From Acidobacteriota bacterium (lineage in GTDB: Bacteria; Acidobacteriota; Terriglobia; Bryobacterales; UBA6623): DNA of 64,000 nt. The stretch spans positions 186,001 to 250,000 of the forward strand of contig WGMB01000003.1 in the NCBI GenBank assembly GCA_016125275.1, written 5' to 3'. Positions 28,010-42,250 of the stretch are shown piece by piece. Below the pieces are notes generated by a model. It searched no databases, was not told where the DNA came from, and was given only the letters and a program-made list of their open reading frames with translations. A program made the translations under genes and the position numbers. The number at the start of each line of letters is the position of its first letter. Within the stretch, counting starts at the first letter, position 1.

Positions 28010-29244
28010 AGGTAAGCCCCGTCCGGATCCAGGCGCTGACCCTGGCGCTAACCGGTTTGGTCTGCGGTTCCGCCGTCTTGATCTACGGCTACGGACAGGG
28101 TCGCGATGTCGCCTTTCAACGCGACCTGTGCGCGGATACAGGCGTTTGTGCGAAGGACTCCCTCAACGAAGCCGCTTGGAACCTGCTGTGGTCCGGCAAC
28201 AGTGAGGGCCCGGTCGAGGCGCTCTCCATCTATCGCGATGTCTTGGCGGGAGACCCGGCCGATCCCGCTAATTGGGCGAACCTGGGCGACGCCCTCACTG
28301 TGACCGGCGACAACGAGGGCGCCTCGAAGGCCTTCGCGAACGCGCTCGAGTTAGGGCCCAATCGCCCTGAAATCTTGATGCGGGTCGCCAACTGGGCGTT
28401 CTCCAACGATCGGCTCGACCTGGCAACAACGGTGACCCGCCGAATCCTCCATCTCGTGCGGGACTACGACGAGGTCCTGTTCCAATTCCTGGCGCTGTCC
28501 GGCCTTACCGCGGAGGAGGCTCTGGAGAGGGCCATCCCCGACGACCGCGAAGCTCTGGCGTCCTACCTGACGTCGACTCTCCGAACGAGAGGAAGCGCGC
28601 CGGCTCAGCCGATTTGGCTGCGCATGAGCGAGCTGAAGATGATCGAGCAGTCCGATCTGGGCCCGTACGTGGCGGGACTGATGAAGGACGGCCGCGAGGA
28701 TCTGGCCGTCGAGGCTCAGCGACAGTTCATCGGCGACCGCGAGCCAACTTGGCCCCAGGACAACGCGGTCTTCAACGGCGGTTTCGAACAAGAGCCGCTG
28801 GGAACGCCCCTCGATTGGACCATCCGACGGCACAACACCGTCAAGATCGACATCGATTCCGAGACTGCGTCAGAGGGAGAAAAGTCCCTGCGGCTCACCT
28901 TCGTGGGGGGAGACAACCTCCAGTTCACGAACGTCTCCCAGGACGTGGTCGTGGGTCCGGGACCGCAACTGCTCCGAGCGATGGTGAAGACTGACGAGGT
29001 GACCACCAACGAGGGTCTGCGGCTGGCCGTGCGCAGTGCATCCGAAGGGCACACGCGCATCTTGGCCATCACGCCGTCGATTGCCGGCACACAGGACTGG
29101 ACGCTGGTCGAACTGCCGTTCCAGGCGCCCCCCGACGCGCGGTCGGTGGAGGTGACGCTGATGCGTCAGCGCTCCCTCAAGGTGAACAGCAAGATCCAAG
29201 GCACGGCCTGGGTGGACGAGGTTGGCATCACCCCTGCGCCATAG
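28006..29244 (+). CDS. TPR protein with a C-terminal beta-sandwich
   Basis: Membrane-anchored or exported protein of 412 residues. An N-terminal hydrophobic helix (IQALTLALTGLVCGSAVLIYGY) is followed by TPR-like helices (about 45-200, with NWANLGDALTVTGD) and a C-terminal region (about 245-405) that looks like a carbohydrate-binding-type beta-sandwich (NGGFEQEPLGTPLDW, SLRLTF, TLVELPFQAPPDA). Similar TPR plus sandwich proteins are seen in exopolysaccharide loci. It starts with ATGA overlap on the preceding gene and converges with the PIG-L gene 5 bp away. Confidence 0.68.
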   Translation: MKVSPVRIQALTLALTGLVCGSAVLIYGYGQGRDVAFQRDLCADTGVCAKDSLNEAAWNLLWSGNSEGPVEALSIYRDVLAGDPADPANWANLGDALTVTGDNEGASKAFANALELGPNRPEILMRVANWAFSNDRLDLATTVTRRILHLVRDYDEVLFQFLALSGLTAEEALERAIPDDREALASYLTSTLRTRGSAPAQPIWLRMSELKMIEQSDLGPYVAGLMKDGREDLAVEAQRQFIGDREPTWPQDNAVFNGGFEQEPLGTPLDWTIRRHNTVKIDIDSETASEGEKSLRLTFVGGDNLQFTNVSQDVVVGPGPQLLRAMVKTDEVTTNEGLRLAVRSASEGHTRILAITPSIAGTQDWTLVELPFQAPPDARSVEVTLMRQRSLKVNSKIQGTAWVDEVGITPAP

Positions 29245-29249
29245 CGATC

Positions 29250-31733
29250 CTACTTACCCGCGCTGACGATGTTCGCGAACAGGCGATAGGCGCCCGGAAC
29301 GCCGGCCGGCAACTGTCGGAAGAACGACAAGCCGGTAAAGACGTACACGCCCTTGCCGTACCGAGCCATCAGCAGGGAGCCGGCTTGTTGCGGCTGGCCT
29401 TCGTCGGCGCTCTCGATCGCCGGCAGGTAGCGCTCGTCCCACGAGCCCATGAAATACAGGCCCCGCTCCTGCACCCAACCTTCGAAGTCCGCCTGGGAGA
29501 TGTGGTTGGGCGCAGTCAGCAGAGGGTGGTCGGGATTCACGAACCGCACCGGGGCGTTCTCATCCACGATGCGGTCGATACGGTCCCGCGTCATCTGCTG
29601 CGGCTCCAGCCGATAGGGTCCCAGCGTCGGGTTCGGACCACGCCGTTCAAAGACGTTGTACTGCATCACGAACGTGCCGCCTTGGTGAATGTATTCGTGG
29701 ATGCGCTTCTCCGCGGCGAGCAAGTCCTCCCGCGTGTTGAGGGCGCGCACGCCGGCGACGATCGCGTCGTACTGCGTCAGGTCGCCCGCGGCAAGCTCCG
29801 CCGAGCCCAACAGGGTGACGTCGGCGCCCAGCTCCTGCAGCGCCTCGGGAATGTTGTCTCCCGCCCCCATCACGTAGCCGATCTTCTTCGACAGCAGCCG
29901 CACGTCGATGCGCTCCACGTGCAGCTTCGCGTCGGAATAGATCATCTGAATCGGGATGTGCTCGTACTCGATCGCCCGCATCCCCGTGGCGATCTGGCGA
30001 CCGTCGCTGAGCTCGACCTCGGCGCGCAGCTCGCCCGACGAGGCGTCCGAGGGCGGCGTCGTCCGCACCTCGAAGGTCGCAGCCTGCCCTTTCGCCGTCA
30101 GCTTCACCGGCTGGCTGGCGGGCTCGACCTTCCACCCGGGAGGCGCGACGATCCGTAGCGTCCCTTCGGCGGAATCCAAGTTGCTGGTCAGCACCACGGG
30201 TACGCTGCGAGGCTCGGCGTTGGGAAAGATCCGCGTATCGCGCGTAAAGGCTACCGCTACGGCGGGCACGATCTCGAGCGAGCGGACCCGTTCGCCACGC
30301 GCCGGATCCACCCAGCGGTAGACCACCGGCTTGGTGAACGTCAGGGGCCTTCCGTCGACGGCGAGTCGGATCGTCGCCTCCAGGGCCGGCGGCTTGTCGG
30401 CGCGACCAATCAGCGACTCATCCTTGTAGCGATAGGTCGTCCCGGTGGGCTCCAATGCCAGCCAAGGCGGCTGCGTATAGGCGGCGTCCGCTGGAATCGT
30501 CAGCTCACGGCGGATGGTCAGCGGCTCGTTTTCGACCAGCGGAGCCTGTTCCGAGCCCGCCGCGGCGTGAGGCACGGACAGCCCCTGGAAGACGACCTTG
30601 GCCGACGAACGATTGAGGACCGTCGCTTCAACGGTGAGCTTTCCGCCCGGCACGGCGTCCCAGCGGTCCGCGGTCGCGTCGATCCACAGCCCGCTCGCCA
30701 ACTCGATGGCATGCAGTAGCTCCGGCCGCTTGACGTCCGGCCAGTAGCCTTGCAGTCCTTCCAGCTCCTCCCAGGCGTCCAGCAGGTGCGGCACGATCTT
30801 TTCCGGGTGGCGAGGATCGTACTCATCGCGGGCCTTGGCCAAGTGGACGCCCACGCGCTCTCCGCCGTCGATGCGCCCCCACGTCAGGTCGATGCCGTCG
30901 AGCAAGCCTTGTTCGGCGCGCTCGCCCGCCACGTGATCGAACAGCGCCGGCACGCTCCCTTTGCGCTCGGATGTTCCCATCGCCTGGCTGCGATGCATGG
31001 AACGGCTCTCGCCGGCGATCTCGGCGTACGACTTGCCCAGCACCGGATTGTACTCGCCGAGCTCTTCCCGAACGCGATTGGGGTTCGGCTGGAGGTCCTG
31101 GTCCCGAGGTCGTCCGAACTGAAACACGTTCCAGACGTAGCGTTTGGCGCGCCAAGCCGGCCCCAGCTCCGGAAACTGTTTCGGGTCGGCGGCGGCTTCG
31201 TAGGCCACCGGCCCCAAGTGGCCCACCGCCGTGTGCTGCCCGTGGCCTCCGTCGCCGGGCGGCGGCGGGAACCGCGCGATGATGACGTCGGGGCGAAACT
31301 GGCGGATCACACGCACCATGTCAGCCAGCAACTGCTGCCGGCCCCACTGCGCCAAGGCCTCTTCGGGAAACTTCGAGTAGCCGAAATCGATCGAGCGGGT
31401 GAAGAACTGCTCTCCTCCGTCGATGCTCCGGGCCGCCAGTAGCTCCTGCGTGCGGATCAGACCCATCAGCGCGCCCTGCTCGGGTCCGATGAGGTTCTGG
31501 CCGCCTTCGCCGCGCGTCGCCGAGAGGTACCCCGTCCGCAGCAGCCGCCCTCGCGCCAAATAGCTGATGACGGCGGTGTTCTCATCATCCGGGTGGGCCG
31601 CCATCATCAACGCCGAACCCAACACGTTCAGCTTGTCGAGCGTCTGCTCGAGCTCCGGAGAGCCGATCCGTGGAGTAGGTTGCGAAAGAGAAGGCAGACA
31701 GGCCAGTAGAAAGGCGAGGACGAGGCGCTTCAC
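29250..31733 (-). CDS. PIG-L family deacetylase fused to an amidotransferase-like domain
   Basis: Exported protein of 827 residues (GTG start at 31733; signal peptide VLAFLLACLPSLS). Residues about 30-280 form a PIG-L/LmbE deacetylase domain with the zinc motif AAHPDDE and the GYLSATRGEGGQN segment, plus GGHGQHTAVGH, consistent with removing N-acetyl groups from sugar conjugates. A long beta-rich middle follows. The last 200 or so residues (GADVTLLGSAELAAGDLTQ, YDAIVAGVRALN, GGTFVMQYN) resemble a class I glutamine amidotransferase/ThuA-like alpha/beta domain. This architecture occurs in Acidobacteria and Planctomycetes; the substrate is not known. It follows the first TonB receptor on the same strand, across a possible terminator. 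Confidence 0.83.
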   Translation of the reverse strand: MKRLVLAFLLACLPSLSQPTPRIGSPELEQTLDKLNVLGSALMMAAHPDDENTAVISYLARGRLLRTGYLSATRGEGGQNLIGPEQGALMGLIRTQELLAARSIDGGEQFFTRSIDFGYSKFPEEALAQWGRQQLLADMVRVIRQFRPDVIIARFPPPPGDGGHGQHTAVGHLGPVAYEAAADPKQFPELGPAWRAKRYVWNVFQFGRPRDQDLQPNPNRVREELGEYNPVLGKSYAEIAGESRSMHRSQAMGTSERKGSVPALFDHVAGERAEQGLLDGIDLTWGRIDGGERVGVHLAKARDEYDPRHPEKIVPHLLDAWEELEGLQGYWPDVKRPELLHAIELASGLWIDATADRWDAVPGGKLTVEATVLNRSSAKVVFQGLSVPHAAAGSEQAPLVENEPLTIRRELTIPADAAYTQPPWLALEPTGTTYRYKDESLIGRADKPPALEATIRLAVDGRPLTFTKPVVYRWVDPARGERVRSLEIVPAVAVAFTRDTRIFPNAEPRSVPVVLTSNLDSAEGTLRIVAPPGWKVEPASQPVKLTAKGQAATFEVRTTPPSDASSGELRAEVELSDGRQIATGMRAIEYEHIPIQMIYSDAKLHVERIDVRLLSKKIGYVMGAGDNIPEALQELGADVTLLGSAELAAGDLTQYDAIVAGVRALNTREDLLAAEKRIHEYIHQGGTFVMQYNVFERRGPNPTLGPYRLEPQQMTRDRIDRIVDENAPVRFVNPDHPLLTAPNHISQADFEGWVQERGLYFMGSWDERYLPAIESADEGQPQQAGSLLMARYGKGVYVFTGLSFFRQLPAGVPGAYRLFANIVSAGK

Positions 31734-31749
31734 AGGATTGAGTTTAGCC

Positions 31750-31786
31750 AAAACGGGCGACGGGGCCCCGCTGTCGGGACCCCGCC
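31750..31786 (-). terminator. Possible terminator between TonB receptor and PIG-L genes
   Basis: A GC-rich imperfect stem (GGGACCCCGCC at 31776-31786 pairing with GGCGACGGGGCCCC at 31757-31770, one bulge) is followed on the minus strand by CCCGTTTTGG. It lies about 20 bp after the receptor stop and may separate the transcripts. Confidence 0.42.
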
Positions 31787-31805
31787 TTCCATCCTCCATC
31801 CGGCG

Positions 31806-34800
31806 CTAAAAGTACAGCTTGAGCCCGAGTTGGATGCTGCGTCCAGTGTTGGCGCTGGTGATCGTGCCAAAGTTCGGCGAACCGTAGGCGGTGCCCGGGA
31901 TCCCGAAGTTGGCGTGGTTGAATGCGTTGAACAACTCCCCGCGGAACTGTAGCCGATAGCGGTCGTGGAATCGGAAGTTCTTCATCACGCCGATGTCGAA
32001 GTTCGCCAGGCCCGGGGCTCGGCCGACCGACCGAGAGGCGTTGCCGAAGGTAAAGCGTTCCGGCTGCGCAAAAGCCTCTGTGTCGAACCACCGCTCAACC
32101 GTCCTCTGACCGCTCGGCAAGGCCGGATCCCGCAGGATGTCAGCGCGCTGCGGACCGGTCGAGCCGCACTCGCAGGTATTCTGCTGCGTCGTCACGCCGT
32201 AGACCGGGCCCGTGAACATCGTTCCCAGCACCGAGAGCTGCCAGCCGCCCAGCACCTGGCTGACCGGACCGTCGTTGAGCCACCGCCTCCCCGGCCCCCA
32301 GGGCAGGTCGTAGACGACGTTGAACGTGACGTTGTGTTTGATGTCGAGCGGACTGGTGGCGTAGTCCAGCCGCCGATTGTAGTAGTTCTGGTAGCCCGAG
32401 CCCGGCGTGCCGCCGAAGTCGCCGCCGGCAATGGCGTCCACGTTATCGAGCATGTGGGAGTAGGTGTAGGTCCACAGGAACTGCAGCCCGTTCTGATAGC
32501 GCTTCTCGGCCCGCAGTAGCAGGGCGTTGTAGCTCGACATGCCGAAGTTGGGCGACAGGATGTTGACCGCCGAGTACTGCGGGTAAGGCCGGCGAGATTG
32601 GATTGTGCCGGGCTGGCCGATCAGCTCGGGCAGCATCTGGTTGATGTTGATGTTGTTGCCGGTCAGAAGGCGCCCCAGGTTGCCCAGGTACTGCGCCTCC
32701 ACCAGCACGCCACGAACCTGGTGCTGAATGCCCAGGTTGAACTGCTGCGAGTACGGCGTGCGCCGGGTGCGTTCGAAGTATTCCACCGTGCTGCCCACGC
32801 CGAATCCCGCGTTGCGGGTCTCCGGTCCGGGCGGGGTGAACGCCGGGTAGCCGTTCCGCAGGTACATCGACGGCGTCTGGTTCTGGTCCGGGCTGACGAT
32901 GAGCTGCTCGGTCGCGAATCCCAACGCCGCGCGCGGGCCCGCGCCTTGGCCGATATCGTCCGGGTTGCCGAAGAAGATGCCGTAGCCGCCGCGCAGCACG
33001 GTCTTGCCGCCGAACATCTTGTAAGCGAAGCCGAACCGGGGACCGAGGTTGTTCTTGTCGAGGTCGAACGGCCGCCGCGGCTCGCCGTCCACCCCGGCGA
33101 AGGTGACGATGCCCGGACGGTTGGCGATCGGGTTGATCGCGTGCAGGTCCACGCTGTTGGAGTTGTTGTTCGGCGAGATGCGCGGCGTCTCCAGGTCGTA
33201 CCGTACGCCGATGTTTAGCGTCAGGTTCGGCGTGACCTTCCAGTCATCCTGAACGTACATGCCGTAGTACTGGCTGCGGAAGACGAGCGCCGGAGAATCT
33301 CGAATGTTGGCGTTGGAGACGAAGCCGAGCAGCATCGTGGCAAAGCCATTGCCGCTGAGGTTGTCCCCCTGCAAGCCCGTACCCTGCTGCGGGTGCACGA
33401 AGTCGCCCGAAGGCAGCACTCGGAACTGGTCCGTCGTGCCGTTCCAGCGGAACTCGAAACCCGCCTTCACTTGGTGACGGCCGGTGAGGTAGGTGATCGA
33501 GTCCGACAGCATCAGCGTCGGGCCGCGCTGCACGCGAAAGACGTTCGCCGTGCCGCCGACGTTGGTGTAGCCGGCCGGCCGGAAGCGGGGAAACGAGAGC
33601 CCGTCCACGCCGGTGAGGCCCAGCATCGAAGGGTAGTCCTTACCCAGCGAGCTGTGCGAAAGGTCTCGAAACTGCTTCAGATAGCTGGCCTTGAAGTCAT
33701 TCACCGCCCGCGGCGAGATGGTGCGCGTCCAGCCGGTCATAAAGGTGTGCGCCAGGTTGCCGATGCTGCGCGTGGATGGTCCCACGGCGTTGGCGTCCGG
33801 GTCCGGGAAGACCGTGACCTGTGGCCGGAAGTTGTGCTGCCCGATGTAGCGACCGAAGAGGCGGTCCTTCTGGCTCAACTGGTGATCGATCTTGATCGTT
33901 CCGTGGTCCTGGGCCCGTTTGGGGCCGACGTTGACGTTGAAGTTGTTCGCCCCCGCGATGTTGCCGGCGACGTTGGGGGCGGGATAGTAGGTCGCCACCT
34001 TGGCCGCGACGGGATCGAACCGCGTCTGCGGAATCAGGTTGTTCGCGAACGGGTCCCGAAGCTGCCGCGTGGCATCGCTCGGGTCCGGCCGCGTGGTCGC
34101 CGGGTCGTACAGCTGCAAGTGGGCGCCCTGATTGTTGACCAGTCCGCTGAAGTCGCCCGCTTGGTAGGCCGCCGTCGGAACAGTGCCCAGGAAGGGAGCG
34201 CCCGTGGTGGTCCGAGTGCCCTCGTAGGCGATGAAGAAGTGCGTCTTGTCCTTGATGATCGGGCCGCCGAGAGTGCCGCCGTACTGGTTGTAGCGCAGCG
34301 GCGCCTTGTCGAGCGAGAAGAAGTTGCGAGCGTCCATCTTCTGATTGCGGAAGAACTCGAACAGGTTGCCGTGGAACTCGTTCGTACCGGATTTGGTGAC
34401 CGCCGAAAACACGCCGCCGGCCGACCGGCCGTACTCGGCCGAGTAGCCGTTGGTGATGACCTTGAACTCCTCCACGGCGTCCACCATCGGCGCCAGCTCG
34501 GCCATCGAGCGGTTCAAGCCCGACTTCTGCACCGAGCCGCCGTCGACATAGAGACCTTGCGTGAAGGCTCGACTGCCGGCCACGGTCGCCACCGGAATCT
34601 CGGAGGCGTCGCCGATGCCTTTGATGAAGGTCGTGGCGCCGGCAAGCTGCACCAAGTTCCAGGCGGAGCGGCCGTTGAGCGGCATTTCCACGATGGACTT
34701 GTTGTCCACGACCTGGCCGATCGTGGCGTTTTCGCTCTCGAGCAAGGGAGCGGCTCCCACCACTTCCACGGTCTCGCTCACTTGGCCGACCTGGAGCTCG

Positions 34801-35132
34801 AAGTCGAGCGAGACGCTCTGCTCGACGTCCAGCTTCACGCCGGAGCGTGAGACCGAGCGAAATCCTTCGGAGCGAACGTCCAGGCGGTAGTTGCCCGGCG
34901 GCAAAAGCGGAAAGCGGTAGTAGCCCTGCGGGCCTGTTTGGGCGCTCTGGGTGATGCCGGTGTCCACGTTGGTCAGCGTCACTCCTGCCCCTGGAATCAC
35001 ACCCCCTGAACTGTCGGTGATTCTTCCTACGATTTGACCTGTTCCACCCTGACCGAACGAGGCCGGGGGAACCAGCAGCGCAATGGCGACGAGCCATGCT
35101 ACTGCGACCATGATAGATCGACTACGATACAT
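31806..35132 (-). CDS. TonB-dependent receptor, Oar-like (copy 1)
   Basis: Outer-membrane receptor of 1108 residues. A signal peptide is followed by a carboxypeptidase-regulatory-like domain (GQIVGRITDSSGGVIPGAG, PQGYYRFPLLPPGNYRLDVR), a plug domain (GQVVDNKSIVEMPLNGRSAW) and a large barrel ending LGLKLYF with the expected terminal Phe. Oar-type receptors carry large substrates such as peptides or oligosaccharides; the ligand here is not known. RBS GAGGAGT precedes the ATG. It is about 90 percent similar by eye to the next gene and has a matching promoter at 35169-35197. Its energising TonB/ExbBD is not in the window. Confidence 0.9.
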   Translation of the reverse strand: MYRSRSIMVAVAWLVAIALLVPPASFGQGGTGQIVGRITDSSGGVIPGAGVTLTNVDTGITQSAQTGPQGYYRFPLLPPGNYRLDVRSEGFRSVSRSGVKLDVEQSVSLDFELQVGQVSETVEVVGAAPLLESENATIGQVVDNKSIVEMPLNGRSAWNLVQLAGATTFIKGIGDASEIPVATVAGSRAFTQGLYVDGGSVQKSGLNRSMAELAPMVDAVEEFKVITNGYSAEYGRSAGGVFSAVTKSGTNEFHGNLFEFFRNQKMDARNFFSLDKAPLRYNQYGGTLGGPIIKDKTHFFIAYEGTRTTTGAPFLGTVPTAAYQAGDFSGLVNNQGAHLQLYDPATTRPDPSDATRQLRDPFANNLIPQTRFDPVAAKVATYYPAPNVAGNIAGANNFNVNVGPKRAQDHGTIKIDHQLSQKDRLFGRYIGQHNFRPQVTVFPDPDANAVGPSTRSIGNLAHTFMTGWTRTISPRAVNDFKASYLKQFRDLSHSSLGKDYPSMLGLTGVDGLSFPRFRPAGYTNVGGTANVFRVQRGPTLMLSDSITYLTGRHQVKAGFEFRWNGTTDQFRVLPSGDFVHPQQGTGLQGDNLSGNGFATMLLGFVSNANIRDSPALVFRSQYYGMYVQDDWKVTPNLTLNIGVRYDLETPRISPNNNSNSVDLHAINPIANRPGIVTFAGVDGEPRRPFDLDKNNLGPRFGFAYKMFGGKTVLRGGYGIFFGNPDDIGQGAGPRAALGFATEQLIVSPDQNQTPSMYLRNGYPAFTPPGPETRNAGFGVGSTVEYFERTRRTPYSQQFNLGIQHQVRGVLVEAQYLGNLGRLLTGNNININQMLPELIGQPGTIQSRRPYPQYSAVNILSPNFGMSSYNALLLRAEKRYQNGLQFLWTYTYSHMLDNVDAIAGGDFGGTPGSGYQNYYNRRLDYATSPLDIKHNVTFNVVYDLPWGPGRRWLNDGPVSQVLGGWQLSVLGTMFTGPVYGVTTQQNTCECGSTGPQRADILRDPALPSGQRTVERWFDTEAFAQPERFTFGNASRSVGRAPGLANFDIGVMKNFRFHDRYRLQFRGELFNAFNHANFGIPGTAYGSPNFGTITSANTGRSIQLGLKLYF

Positions 35133-35168
35133 CAGCGATACTCCTCAACTTGGGAAGTTGGCGCTAAC

Positions 35169-35197
35169 ACCGTAGGCGCATGCGGCTCTGTTGTCAA
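35169..35197 (-). promoter_or_regulatory. Sigma-70 type promoter of TonB receptor copy 1
   Basis: On the minus strand TTGACA (35197-35192) is followed, after exactly 17 bases, by TACGGT (35174-35169). The start codon is about 37 bp downstream. The same arrangement occurs ahead of copy 2, which supports function. Confidence 0.65.
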
Positions 35198-35255
35198 CCA
35201 ATATGAGTCGTATAGAAACAGGGATCGTTCAATAACGATTCACGGGATCGCTGTC

Positions 35256-35289
35256 AAAAAACGAGGCGCTCCTCGGAAGGAGCGCCTCG
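35256..35289 (-). terminator. Intrinsic terminator of TonB receptor copy 2
   Basis: A perfect 12-bp stem (35262-35273 with 35278-35289) with a 4-base loop is followed on the minus strand by TTTTTT. It lies 27 bp after the copy 2 stop and upstream of the copy 1 promoter, so the two receptors are transcribed separately. Confidence 0.9.
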
Positions 35290-35315
35290 CGGTCAGACCA
35301 GCGCCGTGCAGCGGG

Positions 35316-38300
35316 TTAGAAATACAGCTTGAGCCCGAGCTGGATGCTGCGTCCTCGGGCGGCGCTGGTGATCGTACCGAAGTTCGGAGAACCCAGCGCG
35401 GTGCCGGGAATCCCGAAGTTGGCCTTGTTGAAGGCGTTGAACAGCTCCCCGCGGAACTGCAGGCGATAGCGGTCGCGGAACTGGAAGTTCTTCATCACGC
35501 CGATGTCGAAGTTCGCCTGCCCCGGCGCCCGCCCCACGGCGCGTGCGGCGTCGCCGAAGGTGAAGCGCGCCGGCTGGTCGAACGCAGCCGTGTCAAACCA
35601 TTGCTCGACGGTGCGCTGATCTTTGGGCAGTTCCGGATCGTGCAGGATGTTGGCGCGCTGCGGTCCGGCCGAGCCGCACTCGCAGGTGTTCTGCTGGGTG
35701 GTCACGCCGTAGACGGGCCCGGTGAAGACCGTCCCCAGCACCGAGAGCTGCCAGCCGCCCAGCACCTGGCTGACCGGTCCCTCATTGAGCCAGCGCCGCC
35801 CCGGTCCCCAGGGCAGATCGTAGACCACGTTGAACGTCACGTTGTGTTTGATGTCCAACGGGCTGGTCGAATAGTCGAGCCGGCGATTGTAGTAGTCCTG
35901 ATAGCCCGAGCCCGGCGTGCCGCCGAAGTCGCCGTTGGCGATGGCGTCCACGTTGTCGAGCATGTGGGAGTAGGTGTAGGTCCACAGGAACTGCAACCCG
36001 TTCTGGTAGCGCTTCTCCGCCCGCAACAGCAGAGCGTTGTAGCTCGACATGCCGAAGTTCGGCGACAGCAGGTTCACCGCCGTGTATTGCGGGTAGGGCC
36101 GGCGGGACTGGATCGAGCCGGGCTGGCCCACCAGCTCCGGCAGGACCTGATTGATATTGATGTTGTTGCCCGTCAGCAGCCGGCCCAGGTTGCCCAGGTA
36201 TTGCGCCTCCAGCAGCACGCCGCGAAGCTGATGCTGAATGCCCAGGTTGAACTGCTGCGAGTACGGCGTGCGCCGGGTGCGCTCGAAGTACTCCACCGTG
36301 CTGCCGACGCCGAAACCGGCGTTGCGCGTGTCCGGACCCGGCGGGGTGAACGCCGGGTAGCCGTTGCGCAGGTACATCGAAGGCGTCTGGTTCTGGTCCG
36401 GGCTGATGATGAGCTGCTCGGTAGCAAAGCCCAGCGCCGCGCGCGGTCCGGCTCCTTGACCCACGTCGTCCGGGTTGCCGAAGAAGATCCCGTAGCCGCC
36501 GCGCAGCACGGTCTGCCCTCCGAACATCTTGTAAGCGAAGCCGAACCGCGGCGAGATGTTGTTCTTGTCAAAGTCGAACGGCCGGCGGGGTTCGCCGTCC
36601 ACCCCGGCGAACGTGACGATGCCGGGACGGTTGGCGATCGGGTTGATCGCATGCAGATCGACGCTGTTGGAGTTGTTGTCCGGCGAGATGCGGGGCGTTT
36701 CGATGTCGTAACGAACGCCCACGTTCAGCGTCAGGTTCGGCGTGACTTTCCAGTCATCCTGGACGAACGCGCCGTAGTACTGGCTCCGAAACGTCAGCGC
36801 CGGGGAGTCCCGGATGTTGGCGTTGGCCACAAAGCCCAACAGCATCGTCGCAAAGCCGTTGCCGCTGAGGTTGTTGCCCTGCAGTCCCGTGCCCTGCTGC
36901 GGGTGCACGAAGTCGCCCGAGGGCAGAATCCGGAACTGATCCGTGGTGCCGTTCCAGCGATACTCGAAGCCGGCCTTCACCTGGTGACGCCCGGTGAGGT
37001 AGGTGATCGAGTCCGACAGCATCAGCGTCGGGCCGCGCTGGACGCGGAAGACGTTGGCCGTGCCGCCCACCTGGGTGTAGCCGGCGGGACTGAAGCGCGG
37101 GAACGAGAGCCCGTCCACGCCCGTCAGCCCGAGCATCGCCGGATAGTCCTTGCCGAGCGAGCTGTGGGAGAGGTCGCGGAACTGCTTCAAGTAGCTGACC
37201 TTGAAGTCATTGACCACGCGCGGCGAGATTGTCCGCGTCCAGCCGGTCATGAACGTGTGCGCCAGGTTGCCGATGCTGCGGGTGGCCGGGCCGACAGCGT
37301 TGGCGTCGGGATCCGGAAAGACGGTCACCTGCGGTACGAAGTTGTGCTGCCCGATGTAGCGGCCGAAGATGCGGTCCTTCTCGCTGAGCTGGTGGTCGAT
37401 CTTGATGGTGCCGTGGTCCTGGGACCGCTTCGGGCTGACGTTGATGTTGAAGTTGTTGGCGCCGGCCACGTTACCCGCCAGATTCGGCGACGGATAGTAG
37501 GTCGCCACCTTGGCGGCGACGGGATCGAACATCGTTCGCGGAATCTGGTTGTTCGCGAACGGATCACGCAGATGGTTCGTGGCGTCGCTCGGGTCGGGCC
37601 GGGTGGTCGACGGATCGTAGAGTTGGAGCCGCCGGCCTTGCCCGTCGACCAGGCTGCTGAAGTCGCCGGCCTGGAAGGCGGCCGTCGGTACGGTACCAAG
37701 GAACGGCGAGCCTGTGGTGGTGCGGGTTCCTTCGTAGGCGATGAAGAAGTGCGTCTTGTTCTTGATGACGGGGCCGCCGAGCGTTCCGCCGTACTGGTTG
37801 TAACGCAGCGGGGCCTTGTCGATCGAGAAGAAGTTCCGCGCGTCCATCACCTGATTGCGGAAGAACTCGAACAGGTTCCCGTGGAACTCGTTCGTGCCGG
37901 ATTTGGTGACGGCCGAAAAGACGCCGCCGGCGGACCGGCCGTACTCGGCCGCATAGCCGTTGGTGATGACCTTGAACTCCTCCACCGCGTCGACCATTGG
38001 CGCCAGCTCGGCCATGGAGCGGTTCAGGCCCGACTTCTGCACCGAGCCGCCGTCGACGTAGAGGCCCTGGGTGAAAGTTCGGCTGCCGGCCACCGTGGCC
38101 ACCGGGATTTCGCCGGCGTCGCCGATGCCCTGGATAAACGTCGTCGCGCCGGCCAGTTGGACCAGGTTCCAGGCCGAACGGCCGTTGAGCGGCATCTCGA
38201 CGATTGATTTGTTCTCGACCACCTGGCCGATGGTGGCGTTCTCGCTCTCGAGCAGCGGCGCCGAGCCAATGACTTCGACGGTTTCGGTCACCTCACCGAC

Positions 38301-38645
38301 CTCGAGGGTGAAGTCCAGCGAAGCGGTTTGTTCCACGTCGAGCTTTACGCCCGAGCGAGTGACGGTGCGAAAGCCTTCCGAGCGCACGGTCACGCGGTAG
38401 TTGCCCGGAATGAGCAGCGGAAAGCGGTAGTAGCCCTGCGGGCCGGTCTGAGCGTCTTGCTCAATCCCTGTGTCCACGTTGGCGAGATTCACGTCCGCGC
38501 CGGGGATAACGGCGCCGGAAGAGTCGGTCACGCGACCTTGAATCTGCCCGGTTCCGCTGCCCTGTCCCCAGAGCGTCGCCACGCCGGCGAGACCTAGGAC
38601 GAGCAGCAGCAATCGATGTGAGATAAGCGGTTTGCAACGATGCAT
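35316..38645 (-). CDS. TonB-dependent receptor, Oar-like (copy 2)
   Basis: Outer-membrane receptor of 1109 residues with the same layout as copy 1: signal peptide (LLLLVLGLAGVATLWGQ), regulatory-like domain (GQIQGRVTDSSGAVIPGAD), plug (GQVVENKSIVEMPLNGRSAW) and barrel ending LGLKLYF. The ATG at 38645 was chosen because its length then equals that of copy 1 and the signal peptide is normal; an in-frame upstream ATG at 38696 overlaps the promoter. The two proteins differ mainly in scattered positions and the signal peptide, so duplication is recent. The substrate is unknown. The transcript ends at the hairpin 35256-35289. Confidence 0.9.
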   Translation of the reverse strand: MHRCKPLISHRLLLLVLGLAGVATLWGQGSGTGQIQGRVTDSSGAVIPGADVNLANVDTGIEQDAQTGPQGYYRFPLLIPGNYRVTVRSEGFRTVTRSGVKLDVEQTASLDFTLEVGEVTETVEVIGSAPLLESENATIGQVVENKSIVEMPLNGRSAWNLVQLAGATTFIQGIGDAGEIPVATVAGSRTFTQGLYVDGGSVQKSGLNRSMAELAPMVDAVEEFKVITNGYAAEYGRSAGGVFSAVTKSGTNEFHGNLFEFFRNQVMDARNFFSIDKAPLRYNQYGGTLGGPVIKNKTHFFIAYEGTRTTTGSPFLGTVPTAAFQAGDFSSLVDGQGRRLQLYDPSTTRPDPSDATNHLRDPFANNQIPRTMFDPVAAKVATYYPSPNLAGNVAGANNFNINVSPKRSQDHGTIKIDHQLSEKDRIFGRYIGQHNFVPQVTVFPDPDANAVGPATRSIGNLAHTFMTGWTRTISPRVVNDFKVSYLKQFRDLSHSSLGKDYPAMLGLTGVDGLSFPRFSPAGYTQVGGTANVFRVQRGPTLMLSDSITYLTGRHQVKAGFEYRWNGTTDQFRILPSGDFVHPQQGTGLQGNNLSGNGFATMLLGFVANANIRDSPALTFRSQYYGAFVQDDWKVTPNLTLNVGVRYDIETPRISPDNNSNSVDLHAINPIANRPGIVTFAGVDGEPRRPFDFDKNNISPRFGFAYKMFGGQTVLRGGYGIFFGNPDDVGQGAGPRAALGFATEQLIISPDQNQTPSMYLRNGYPAFTPPGPDTRNAGFGVGSTVEYFERTRRTPYSQQFNLGIQHQLRGVLLEAQYLGNLGRLLTGNNININQVLPELVGQPGSIQSRRPYPQYTAVNLLSPNFGMSSYNALLLRAEKRYQNGLQFLWTYTYSHMLDNVDAIANGDFGGTPGSGYQDYYNRRLDYSTSPLDIKHNVTFNVVYDLPWGPGRRWLNEGPVSQVLGGWQLSVLGTVFTGPVYGVTTQQNTCECGSAGPQRANILHDPELPKDQRTVEQWFDTAAFDQPARFTFGDAARAVGRAPGQANFDIGVMKNFQFRDRYRLQFRGELFNAFNKANFGIPGTALGSPNFGTITSAARGRSIQLGLKLYF

Positions 38646-38679
38646 TAGCGATTCCCCCAACCTTGGAGAAGCGCTAAAC

Positions 38680-38709
38680 ACGCTAGGCGCGCGCATCGGG
38701 GCAAGTCAA
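38680..38709 (-). promoter_or_regulatory. Sigma-70 type promoter of TonB receptor copy 2
   Basis: On the minus strand TTGACT (38709-38704) is followed after 18 bases by TAGCGT (38685-38680). Downstream GTGTTTAGCG matches the copy 1 leader (GTGTTAGCG). The start codon lies about 35 bp downstream. Confidence 0.6.
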
Positions 38710-38822
38710 CGGAATTCGCCCGAAATCAAACCGAAACAGGCCAAAACACCGGCATTATGGGATCTTCGGAACCCTGAATACACAGGGGGCGCCCTCGAGG
38801 CCTCTTCCGCGCTTAGGAACGA

Positions 38823-40214
38823 TCAGGCGAGCAATTCGTCGAGCGGACCGCGGTGCATGGCCTCGTCGATTTCCGGGTCCAAATTGCCAAAATCATCACG
38901 CGGACGACCCGCTGCGTGCAGCAGCGTGTTGTAGAGCGCGTTGATGGTGCGATGCCCCGGCTTGCCGTAGTCGGGATAGGCCACGTGGCGACCGCCGCGC
39001 CGCAGTTTGCCGTTGAGGTCGCCCAGGACGACGAACGGCCACTCGAAGCAACTGCTGTGATGCTCCTCGGCGGCGTCGCTCAAGTAGACGACCACCGTGT
39101 TGTCCAGCATCGTCCCGTCGCCTTCGGGAACCGAGTCCAGCTTGCGCAGGAAGCGCGCGATCAGCCCGAAGTGGAACGCTCGAATCTTCTCGGCATCGAG
39201 CCAGCCCTGACCGCCGATCTGGCTGCGGTAGTCGTGCCCGATCGGGTGCTTGCCCCGCTCGAGGCCCAGTCCGCGGAACACCACGTCAAAGAACGGAAAG
39301 CCGACGCCCGAGGCGATCGTGACCACCTGCGAAAGCCCGCCGATCATCACCGCCGCCGCCATCTCGAAGTGCGCGTCCAGGCGGTCGGTCTCGACCTCGG
39401 AGTTGTACTTGTCGTCCGCGACCGGCGCCGCGCCGGCCAGGGTTTCGCGCGCGTCGACCAGCCGCTGCGAGGTGCGTGAGATCGTTTCGTACGATTCCAG
39501 ATAGGCGTCGAGCTTGCGGCGCTCCGGCCCGGCTAGGCTGCCCCGCACCCGCCCGATGTCGGACTGCATGTAGTCCATCAGGTTGCGTTTGGCGGCAAAG
39601 GTCGCCTTGGCCTCGCCCTCGGCCACGCTGCCGAACATCCGGGAGAACGCGATTTCGGGCTTGCAGATGGTGGCGAGGCTGCGGTCGCGCCGGTCGGCGG
39701 AGCAGTTGAAAATCACCGCTTCTTCCGACTTGGACGCGATGCCGAGGGTCACGTTGGGGAAGATTCCCGGGTCGCCCTGCCCCAGTACGGAGTCGATCGT
39801 CGGTCCCTGTATGCTGCGCCCGCTGTTGGCGTGGTAGGCGCCCAGCGCCCCGTGGTCGCTCGAGTGCCCGCCGGTGCACATCCTGCCCGAAAGGCCCTGC
39901 ACGATCGTCAGCCGATCGCGAAACTCCTCCACCGGCTGCAGAGAATCCGGCAGCCGTGTCCCGTCCAGCGAGTCGACGCGCAGCTTGTCGCGATCCTTGC
40001 GCTTGACGAACTCCAGCCCCAGCGGATGGACCTGCTCGGGCGGCAACCCGTTGCCTTCCACCACGAACAGGAAGCGCGGCGCCCCGCCCTCGCGCCCGTC
40101 GGCCGCCTGAGCCAGCCGATTCAGCAGGGGCGACAGCAGCAATCCGCCGGCTCCCAGCGTGGAGCTCTTCAAGAAGCGGCGGCGTCCGAAGTCCGCGACG
40201 GGTTTGGCGATCAC
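38823..40214 (-). CDS. DUF1552 family protein, Tat-exported
   Basis: Exported protein of 463 residues from the DUF1552 family. The twin-arginine signal (GRRRFLKSS then a hydrophobic stretch) is visible, followed by the family's core: SGRMCTGGHSSDHGALGAYH and GPTIDSVLGQ. DUF1552 proteins are usually encoded next to DUF1592/DUF1588 cytochromes, as here; the pair overlaps by 4 bases (ATGA). They are associated with polymer use in Planctomycetes and Acidobacteria, but no reaction is established. The frame ends at 38823, and an AT-richer gap with a promoter for the receptors follows. Confidence 0.85.
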   Translation of the reverse strand: MIAKPVADFGRRRFLKSSTLGAGGLLLSPLLNRLAQAADGREGGAPRFLFVVEGNGLPPEQVHPLGLEFVKRKDRDKLRVDSLDGTRLPDSLQPVEEFRDRLTIVQGLSGRMCTGGHSSDHGALGAYHANSGRSIQGPTIDSVLGQGDPGIFPNVTLGIASKSEEAVIFNCSADRRDRSLATICKPEIAFSRMFGSVAEGEAKATFAAKRNLMDYMQSDIGRVRGSLAGPERRKLDAYLESYETISRTSQRLVDARETLAGAAPVADDKYNSEVETDRLDAHFEMAAAVMIGGLSQVVTIASGVGFPFFDVVFRGLGLERGKHPIGHDYRSQIGGQGWLDAEKIRAFHFGLIARFLRKLDSVPEGDGTMLDNTVVVYLSDAAEEHHSSCFEWPFVVLGDLNGKLRRGGRHVAYPDYGKPGHRTINALYNTLLHAAGRPRDDFGNLDPEIDEAMHRGPLDELLA

Positions 40215-42250
40215 TGCGTCTCTCCTGCGGTCGAACCGTCCGCGACCATCCTCGGCGCGCGGCGGTAGAGGAACGAGTCCGATGTCAGCAACGACGCCAG
40301 CAGCGCCTTCATGCTACCGCCGGCGTCCACATAAGCCTTGTCGGCGCGAATCAGCGTCTCCGAGTCCGCCAGGGTCTCGTTGCGCCCCATCCAGTAGCGG
40401 AAGGCGTGCCGTACGAAGACCTGCCGCACGCGCTCGGAGTCGGCCAGACGGCGCGTCAGCTCGAAAGGGTCCGCGACCGGACCGTCCAGCTCCGGCAGCC
40501 CCGCGACGACCGTGCCGGCCGTCACCACCGGCCGGCCGACCTCCTCGCCGCGGAACTCCCCGAACAGCCCATACTGCTCGAAGGGCAGGCCGAGCTCGTC
40601 CATCTTCTGATGGCAACCCCAGCAGTACTCCTGCCGGGTCACTTGCATCCGCTCGCGCAGCGTCTTGGTCTCGTCCTCGGGCAACTGGGCGTTCACACTG
40701 ATGGGCACGTCGGGCACGGTTCCGCCCAACAGCTTGGTGCGAATCCAGCGCCCTCGCTGGATGGCCTGATTCTTGTCCGCGTCAGAGAACGTCAACAGCC
40801 AGGCAGGGTGCGTCAGCATTCCCGAACGCTGCCCAGCGGGCATCTGGACCGGTTGTTCCGGCGTCCATTCCCACTCGCGGTCGAGATTGTAGAGCTCGTA
40901 GTACCACTTCTGGCGCTTGTCGGGCCGATTGACGAGCTGCTTTTCGGGATTCTTGCTGTTGTAGTTGACGAAATACTTCGACGTGGTCAGCAGCGTCCGC
41001 AGCACGTCCTGGTCGGACTCCAGCGTATGCGCCACCAAGGCGTCGGCGTCGAGCACCATCTCGCGCGCCATGATGTGCTTGATCAGGCGGCCGGTCTTGA
41101 AGACGTTCGGCGCCCGGTCGTATTCGAAATACTCTCGGAAGAAGCGCAGGATGCGGGGCTTGTCGAGGCCGGGGTCGTCGAGCATCCGCCGCGCCTCGGC
41201 CAGGACGCCTTCCCGCGTCGACAGCTTGCCGGCCTCCTCGGCCTCCCGCAGGGCCTCATCCGGCGGGCGGTCCGTGAGGGCGTAGCTGAGAGCCCAGGCG
41301 ATCTCGCGGTCGGAGAGCCGCACCGCGTCGTCGTCGCCCTCGATCGGCCGTCCCAGCTCGAATCGGAAGACGGCCTCGGGCGTCAGCAGGACGGCGCTCA
41401 GGGCGGTCTGTAGGGCCAAGCGAGGGCCTGCGTCCGCCGCGGTCCGCAGCGCCAAGCCGGTCACGCCTTGCAGCTCCTCGGGCGTCGGATCGCGTTGCAG
41501 GACCTCTCGATACTGGGCCTCGACGGCTGCCTCGTAGTCGGCCGGCCCGGGCTTCTCGAGCGCCAACGGGGCGCGCAGCGGCGCCGGACTGCCCGGGCTG
41601 TCCATCTGGTAGCCCGCCACCAGCCACAGCATGTTCATCAGCAGCTCGGTGGTGGCGTCCTCGAACGAGTGCACGTTGGCAAAGTCCCGAAACGTGTGCT
41701 CCGGCGTCAGCGAGGGCAGCGAGGGGTGCAAGCCGTCTCCGCCCTGGTTCGGTTTGGCCACCAGCAGCGGCTTGTGCGCCAAGGTGTTGACCATCTCCTT
41801 GAAGGCGTGGGCGTTGATGCGCCAGACGCGGGCGGGGGCCGGCGCCGGCGGATACGCGGCTCCGCTGAAAAGCGCCTCGTGGTCCACATAATTGCCGAAA
41901 CCGGCGCGCTCGGCGGCATCGATCGAGCCCTCCAGCCCCAGCCCGGAGCGCAGGGCGGCCTTCACCTGACCGAGCCGGCCGTCATCGGGCCGAGGCAGCG
42001 GCTTGGGGGGCATGGCCCCAAGCGAGAGCTGATTCAGGACCCTCGTCCAGATATCGCGCTCGGCGGGCTCGGCCCCCGGCGCGTGCAACTGGTCCAAGCG
42101 CAAGTCCCGGAGGCTCAGCGCCGGTCCGTGGCACTGCACGCAGTTCGCCTGGAGGAACGGTTGGATGGTCTCGTTGAAATCAGCCGGCGCAGCCGCCGCG
42201 CCGACGACCGTCAGCATGATCGCCGCGGTGAGCCCGAAAACCCGCATCAA
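40211..42250 (-). CDS. DUF1592/DUF1588 family cytochrome c-like protein
   Basis: Exported multidomain protein of 679 residues. After a signal peptide, an N-terminal heme site CVQCH (Cys37, Cys40, His41) marks a planctomycete-type cytochrome domain. The middle holds the DUF1587/DUF1592 region (EIAWALSYALTDRPPDEAL), and the C-terminal part includes DUF1588, with a second CWGCH motif (QEYCWGCHQKMDELGLPFEQY), and DUF1585. Such proteins are predicted redox partners of the DUF1552 protein at the outer face of the inner membrane. It is co-transcribed with the DUF1552 gene (4-base overlap) and possibly with the PLP-enzyme gene 43 bp upstream. Confidence 0.86.
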   Translation of the reverse strand: MMRVFGLTAAIMLTVVGAAAAPADFNETIQPFLQANCVQCHGPALSLRDLRLDQLHAPGAEPAERDIWTRVLNQLSLGAMPPKPLPRPDDGRLGQVKAALRSGLGLEGSIDAAERAGFGNYVDHEALFSGAAYPPAPAPARVWRINAHAFKEMVNTLAHKPLLVAKPNQGGDGLHPSLPSLTPEHTFRDFANVHSFEDATTELLMNMLWLVAGYQMDSPGSPAPLRAPLALEKPGPADYEAAVEAQYREVLQRDPTPEELQGVTGLALRTAADAGPRLALQTALSAVLLTPEAVFRFELGRPIEGDDDAVRLSDREIAWALSYALTDRPPDEALREAEEAGKLSTREGVLAEARRMLDDPGLDKPRILRFFREYFEYDRAPNVFKTGRLIKHIMAREMVLDADALVAHTLESDQDVLRTLLTTSKYFVNYNSKNPEKQLVNRPDKRQKWYYELYNLDREWEWTPEQPVQMPAGQRSGMLTHPAWLLTFSDADKNQAIQRGRWIRTKLLGGTVPDVPISVNAQLPEDETKTLRERMQVTRQEYCWGCHQKMDELGLPFEQYGLFGEFRGEEVGRPVVTAGTVVAGLPELDGPVADPFELTRRLADSERVRQVFVRHAFRYWMGRNETLADSETLIRADKAYVDAGGSMKALLASLLTSDSFLYRRAPRMVADGSTAGETQ

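Follow-up and report, generated by a model that had tools for sequence, protein, structure and literature searches.

Two receptor genes which lie side by side in the window, the whole 64,000-nucleotide stretch of DNA that we have analyzed, come from a tandem duplication which is specific to this lineage, included the proximal promoter and is not recent. Duplications of this kind are ordinary for the genome, which seems to belong to a soil Acidobacterium. We think it quite likely that these genes, A and B, are tandem paralogues coding for a TonB-dependent outer-membrane transporter with the Oar architecture, which go back to an old duplication and have been retained by redundancy or dose.

The two receptor genes

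Gene A (positions 31806–35132, minus strand) codes for 1108 amino acids, and its paralogue, gene B (35316–38645, minus strand), for 1109, with 88% amino acid and 84% nucleotide identity. They are separated by 183 bases and found on the same strand, as the first-pass annotation had reported, and the two proteins align end to end with one single-residue gap. The open reading frame list also gives an alternative start for B, the upstream-most ATG at 38696, which would extend the protein to 1126 amino acids; we do not prefer it.

Protein A contains a signal peptide, a CarboxypepD_reg N-terminal domain (residues 33–114), a putative plug region and, in the predicted model, a 22-strand barrel. In Pfam, the N-terminal domain PF13620 (CarboxypepD_reg) scores 81.6 bits in A and 87.7 bits in B (cut-off 32.3), and the outer-membrane barrel PF25183 scores 786.2 and 777.7 bits (cut-off 30). 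Both barrels fit this last family far better than PF00593, for which A has 26.9 bits, just below 27, and B has 33.3 bits. The PF07715 plug has no Pfam match in either protein at E 0.001, NCBIfam matches are all far below cut-off, and a search of the PDB by sequence finds no matching chain at E 0.01. The string ETVEV, spotted by eye at residues 121–125 of A, is a possible TonB box.

The structure of A is an AlphaFold model made from a 47-sequence alignment (mean pLDDT 81, pTM 0.77). Its 22 barrel strands, read manually off the DSSP string, correspond to a prediction, not to a solved structure. Foldseek finds 396 PDB matches to this model at E 0.001 or better (best E 3.8e-37), and the alignment with solved transporters extends over about 1000 columns. 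By title, the best 50 of the 396 matches are all outer-membrane transporters or receptors, which we take to be TonB-dependent. The fold of the model is common to FusA, YddB, PfeA, BtuB and FecA, TonB-dependent receptors for siderophores, vitamins and proteins in the PDB. On the other hand, A is longer than these receptors and has an additional N-terminal domain, and sequence identity is 8–12% among the matches listed.

PMC6434023 describes the Oar protein of Myxococcus xanthus as a transporter which has 22 strands and a PF13620 extension; the beta-barrel of TonB-dependent receptors is PF00593 in that paper and PF25183 in current Pfam. A and B are similar to the Oar subclass in their PF13620 CarboxypepD_reg N-terminal extension, their putative plug region and their predicted 22-strand barrel (PMC6434023). 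They differ from it in lacking a Pfam match to the PF07715 plug and in having a barrel which is closer to PF25183 than to PF00593. The likeness is one of described architecture, and in this sense "Oar-like" is a fair label for A and B.

Divergence between A and B

The proteins have 979 identical residues out of 1108 (88.4%) and the genes have 2783 identical bases out of 3324 (83.7%); the first, second and third codon positions agree in 90, 95 and 67% of cases. The genes had been called near-identical, which holds loosely for the proteins and poorly for the DNA. By the NG86 method dN is 0.077 and dS is 0.65, and the overall dN/dS is about 0.12; codon-ML raises dS to 1.8. The difference between the two dS values indicates that saturation matters, so the exact value is uncertain, and it is low by neither estimate.

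Among the 956 codons where A and B share the residue, 68% are identical, and the longest identical run has 16 codons (permutation p 0.46). From codon 181 onward, synonymous differences are evenly spread (block variance, permutation p 0.45). Over the whole gene they are uneven (block variance p 0.0002), because the 5' end (codons 1–180) is even more diverged. A high dS and an even spread of synonymous differences from codon 181 imply that the duplication is not recent. This is the very pattern which the first-pass annotation had associated with an old duplication, and it is found over most of the gene. Given the excess at the 5' end, the duplication could even be older than the gene body suggests. 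Among the 129 amino acid differences, the sites which may be polarised with two relatives correspond to 25 changes derived in A and 26 derived in B, so there is no one-sided acceleration. Purifying selection acts on both genes, and neither evolves faster than the other.

Upstream regions and terminators

Upstream of A there is a promoter-like -35 hexamer, TTGACA (35192–35197, minus strand), which starts at -65 and is followed, after a 17-base spacer, by the -10 hexamer TACGGT (35169–35174, minus strand). B has TTGACT (38704–38709, minus strand), which starts at -64, and TAGCGT (38680–38685, minus strand), with an 18-base spacer. A shared motif, GTGTT(T)AGCG, appears as GTGTTAGCG at -38 in A (35162–35170, minus strand) and as GTGTTTAGCG at -36 in B (38672–38681, minus strand). 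All these putative elements are found as originally described, including their equal distance from the start codon, and it is plausible from the sequence that the hexamers are promoters. We have compared the upstream regions of 82 of the roughly 106 receptor loci in this genome: GTGTT followed by zero to two bases and AGCG is only found at A and B.

When the upstream regions of A and B are aligned from -47 to -1, 35 of the 42 aligned bases are identical. A similarity as high as this is found in 3 of 3301 unrelated receptor upstream pairs. It spans about -66 to the start codon, fades further up, and is not seen in the single-copy relatives L013 and L014. The proposal that the duplication took the promoter along is borne out by this in-register similarity. 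In the within-array upstream comparisons, 6 of 19 stand out (null fraction below 0.005), A/B among them, and two of the six (L126 and L129) are short off-register matches. In most arrays, thus, the promoter no longer looks shared.

A strict sigma-70 consensus scan of positions 29000–40500 finds no promoters (shuffle mean 1.0). The looser pattern TTGAC-N16-19-TAnnnT is present in 17 of the 82 receptor upstream regions, whereas 200 mononucleotide shuffles average 0.37 and never exceed 3. This suggests that promoters of this type are probably general for the receptors of this genome. We have also considered a LacI-type operator shared by the receptors, since GTTAGCGC presumably resembles half of a LacI-family palindrome. 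Allowing up to two mismatches, TGTTAGCGCTAACA has 6 strand-hits in the whole genome (3 places, including the promoter of A), fewer than the 10 of the reversed control, so we discard it as an operator common to the receptors.

Between B and A there is a strong intrinsic terminator (35261–35290, minus strand), a stem of 13 pairs with a T run after it, and the first-pass annotation had noted a terminator here; the 86 bases around it have a folding z-score of -5.15. A weak terminator candidate lies past the stop codon of A, before the next gene (31735–31808, minus strand). It is a GC-rich hairpin of 12 pairs with four T shortly after, and the terminator scan does not list this region.

Relatives and gene neighbourhood

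Our comparison set contains the window's own genome and those of 60 relatives, 61 in all, and the window's genus is represented by its own genome alone. Matches at E 1e-250 or better are found in 6 of the 61 genomes in a first search where, for most genomes, only the best 12 candidates were scored. The closest genes outside the window genome are one each in G006 and G011, which belong to another genus (g5) of the same family, with 64–65% identity to A and to B. The next-best genes in these two genomes are far below, at 42% and 38%, respectively, in a recheck which scored the best 150 of 173 candidates in G006 and the best 150 of 162 in G011. A GTDB scan with A, which searches for close relatives only, gives 17 loci with a best identity of 41%. 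All of them are titled Acidobacteria or subgroups (Bryobacterales, Acidobacteriaceae, Candidatus Solibacter).

Since G006 and G011 have one copy each, equally distant from A and B, these comparisons most simply place the duplication after the split from genus g5; alternatively, a second copy may have been lost in G006 and G011. In the barrel, synonymous identity between A and B is 0.70. For 12 orthologue pairs between G006 and G011 it is 0.44–0.59 in 11 cases and 0.71 in one, so the duplication looks younger than the split between these two species, as judged from most genes and provided that rates are similar. Several receptor matches in G006 and G022 contain a single in-frame stop and are perhaps decaying copies in the family.

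A is followed by a PIG-L gene, and B is preceded by DUF1552 and DUF1588/1592-type genes. The single copy in G006 is found near genes for a divergent receptor, a cytochrome, and PQQ-type and SecA-like proteins; the one in G011 is near DUF1501, GntP and PhoD genes. An attempt to deduce the function from the neighbours was abandoned: The scanned neighbours of A/B and of the G006 and G011 copies have nothing in common.

The gene for the PIG-L family protein (29250–31799) comes directly after A, and its longest open reading frame begins 6 bases past the stop codon of A. Judging by eye, a likelier start is at 31733, where a GTG precedes a signal-peptide-like stretch; this leaves room for the hairpin. 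PIG-L genes are found beside tandem receptors at a second place. At G000:C1:561026-564682, some 0.8 kb ahead of the L125 array, 5 of the 12 PIG-L matches in the genome lie within 4 kb.

Tandem receptor arrays in the genome

A search of the window genome with A gives 146 matched segments, merged by hand into about 106 loci, about a dozen of which match the N-terminal part alone. They include 13 tight arrays of genes on the same strand, with 16 adjacent pairs whose open frames are at most about 500 bases apart. Identity in these pairs is 65–93% and dS is 0.33–0.87; A/B is the sixth in identity and has the fifth highest dS. Being one of 13 similar arrays, A/B is largely ordinary. The L125 pair, whose second copy is cut by the end of the contig, has been dropped from the statistics below, which cover 15 of the 16 pairs. 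In the complete genome of G006, the best 150 of 185 segments merge into 116 loci. Among the segments listed, one same-strand pair is under 600 bases apart, with a broken second member, and four are under 1.1 kb.

According to PMC3174227, the genome of Candidatus Solibacter usitatus Ellin6076 has extensive, mostly old paralogy, with TonB-dependent receptors among the groups analyzed. It shares with the window genome large paralogue families which include these receptors. Ellin6076 paralogues with the same functional definition generally have less than 50% identity and most are not recent (PMC3174227), whereas the 16 adjacent pairs described here have 65–93%. In the part of the literature that we have searched, none of the titles listed concerns tandem receptor arrays in Acidobacteria.

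A few other receptor loci are worth mentioning. The tandem pair L128 (G000:C10:198000-205300) has only 65.5% amino acid identity yet a dS of 0.45. Its dN/dS, about 0.64, is far above that of the other arrays, which makes it a candidate for diversifying or relaxed selection. L136 (G000:C1:375300-382700) is a head-to-head receptor pair, 70% identical, with a common intergenic region of about 300 bases. Finally, the ends of contigs C1 and C14 (L202/L203) overlap by exactly 141 identical bases within a receptor gene. Such an overlap is expected from a fork in the assembly graph, so young near-identical receptor pairs could be missing from the assembly.

Alternative explanations

The pair had been read as a recent duplication including the promoter, useful for dose or specialisation. 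A and B do have the same order and strand, similar promoters and equal promoter distances. Nevertheless, a dS of 0.65, which is high even among the adjacent pairs, and a third-position identity of 67% contradict this reading and make it very improbable. We also find it hard to believe that the second copy came from a related species by transfer and landed next to the first. The neighbourhoods of both single-copy relatives differ from the A/B locus and from each other, which indicates that such genes can move. But the similarity between A and B far exceeds that of either to the best gene in the 60 relative genomes (65%, with the best 12 candidates scored in most of them), the GTDB scan for close relatives reaches only 41%, the promoter is common to both genes, and the same pattern is found at 12 other arrays. 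A third explanation, which we regard as rather unlikely, is an older duplication whose plug and barrel were partly homogenised by gene conversion, while the older 5' end was left. Synonymous identity is lower in the N-terminal domain than in the barrel in all 15 tandem pairs tested (mean 0.57 vs 0.74). The gap is smaller, 0.68 vs 0.74 (Mann-Whitney p 0.002), in 14 orthologue pairs with a comparable divergence in the barrel, selected from 61 by a barrel synonymous identity of 0.6–0.9 (L184, with an internal stop, was left out). In A/B, the N-terminal domain has a dS of 1.27, against 0.44–0.68 elsewhere in the mature protein. On the other hand, A/B contains no identical tract longer than the 16-codon run mentioned above. 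Heterogeneity in the body and the correlation between amino acid and synonymous identity are not significantly above those of orthologues, here a hand-picked set of 22 pairs (p 0.18 and 0.07; 0.04 and 0.18 when the N-terminal domain is included). Some 5' excess is also present in orthologue pairs, which share genes and are not independent, and no similar drop is seen at the C-terminal ends (mean 0.71 vs 0.74), where the flanking sequence is unlike as well. According to PMC6053082, concerted evolution is very seldom maintained for hundreds of millions of years. We have rejected conversion in the body of A/B, where there is no long identical tract and neither correlation nor overdispersion is significantly in excess, and have kept it as a rival on the signal from the 5' end only.

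Specialisation of the surface is somewhat less doubtful, though still unlikely in the form that loops 2 and 10 give A and B different ligands. In the predicted model, extracellular loop 2 of A (33921–34202, minus strand; residues 311–404) differs from B at 18 of 94 residues, and in loop 10 (32010–32213, minus strand; residues 974–1041) changes cluster, with 13 of 68. Predicted loops have a dN of 0.074 and 56 changed residues out of 496, strands a dN of 0.037 and 20 out of 313 (Fisher p 0.025). The excess in loop 10, which is the least changed loop when A is compared with G011 (14 of 68), has a Fisher p of 0.0009, about 0.013 when corrected for 14 classes, and a p of 0.014 in a 60-residue scan. 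However, this loop was chosen after the fact, and its dS is raised as well (1.10, with a dN/dS of about 0.11), so the clustering is only a hint. When the 15 tandem pairs are compared with 15 orthologue pairs chosen by hand, there is no difference in the loop-to-strand ratio (p 0.21) or in loop 10 (p 0.28). A general loop specialisation was rejected, as the ratio is no higher in tandem pairs than in orthologues. Three of the 15 class comparisons differ nominally: In tandem pairs the plug is higher (p 0.03), periplasmic turns are lower (p 0.003) and loop 9, alone among the loops, is higher (p 0.005). The specialisation suggested initially keeps in its favour the changes in predicted loop 10, while equal rates in both copies and a dN/dS of about 0.12 speak against it. 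Judging from the sequences, specialisation of A and B is possible.

Discussion

We favour an old duplication which included the promoter. The duplicated unit would have begun about 66 bases ahead of the start codon and run through the gene to its end, giving a head-to-tail pair, most simply after the lineage split from its g5 relatives. Both copies then diverged at an equal rate under purifying selection, leaving synonymous sites well diverged while 88% of the residues and the proximal promoter stayed alike. Most likely A and B each have a promoter of their own, and B would be uncoupled from A by the terminator downstream of it. To judge from the fold and the family, each protein is most likely a TonB-energised transporter whose large extracellular loops bind a ligand, which then passes through the barrel. 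Retention is most likely due to redundancy or dose, together with a mild divergence of the surface loops, as in other arrays of the genome. A/B would then be a case of ordinary paralogue retention in an expanded family.

The pattern at the 5' end and the clustering in loop 10 are hints. A broader reading is a burst of tight tandem receptor duplications, where conversion keeps the transport body alike while the promoter, signal peptide and N-terminal domain drift apart. We would give it little credence, and the same applies to the idea, part of this reading, that these three are the parts which face regulation and the TonB system. The broader reading is drawn from the 16 adjacent pairs on one strand whose matched parts are separated by less than 600 bases, among about 106 loci, as against one such pair among the segments listed for G006.

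In any case, similarity at the protein level overstates the recency of a receptor duplication, and the A/B pair can now be seen as part of a pattern of tandem receptor arrays across the genome. Should the pattern at the 5' end be confirmed, these arrays would be a natural system for the study of how large receptor families keep transport and change regulation.
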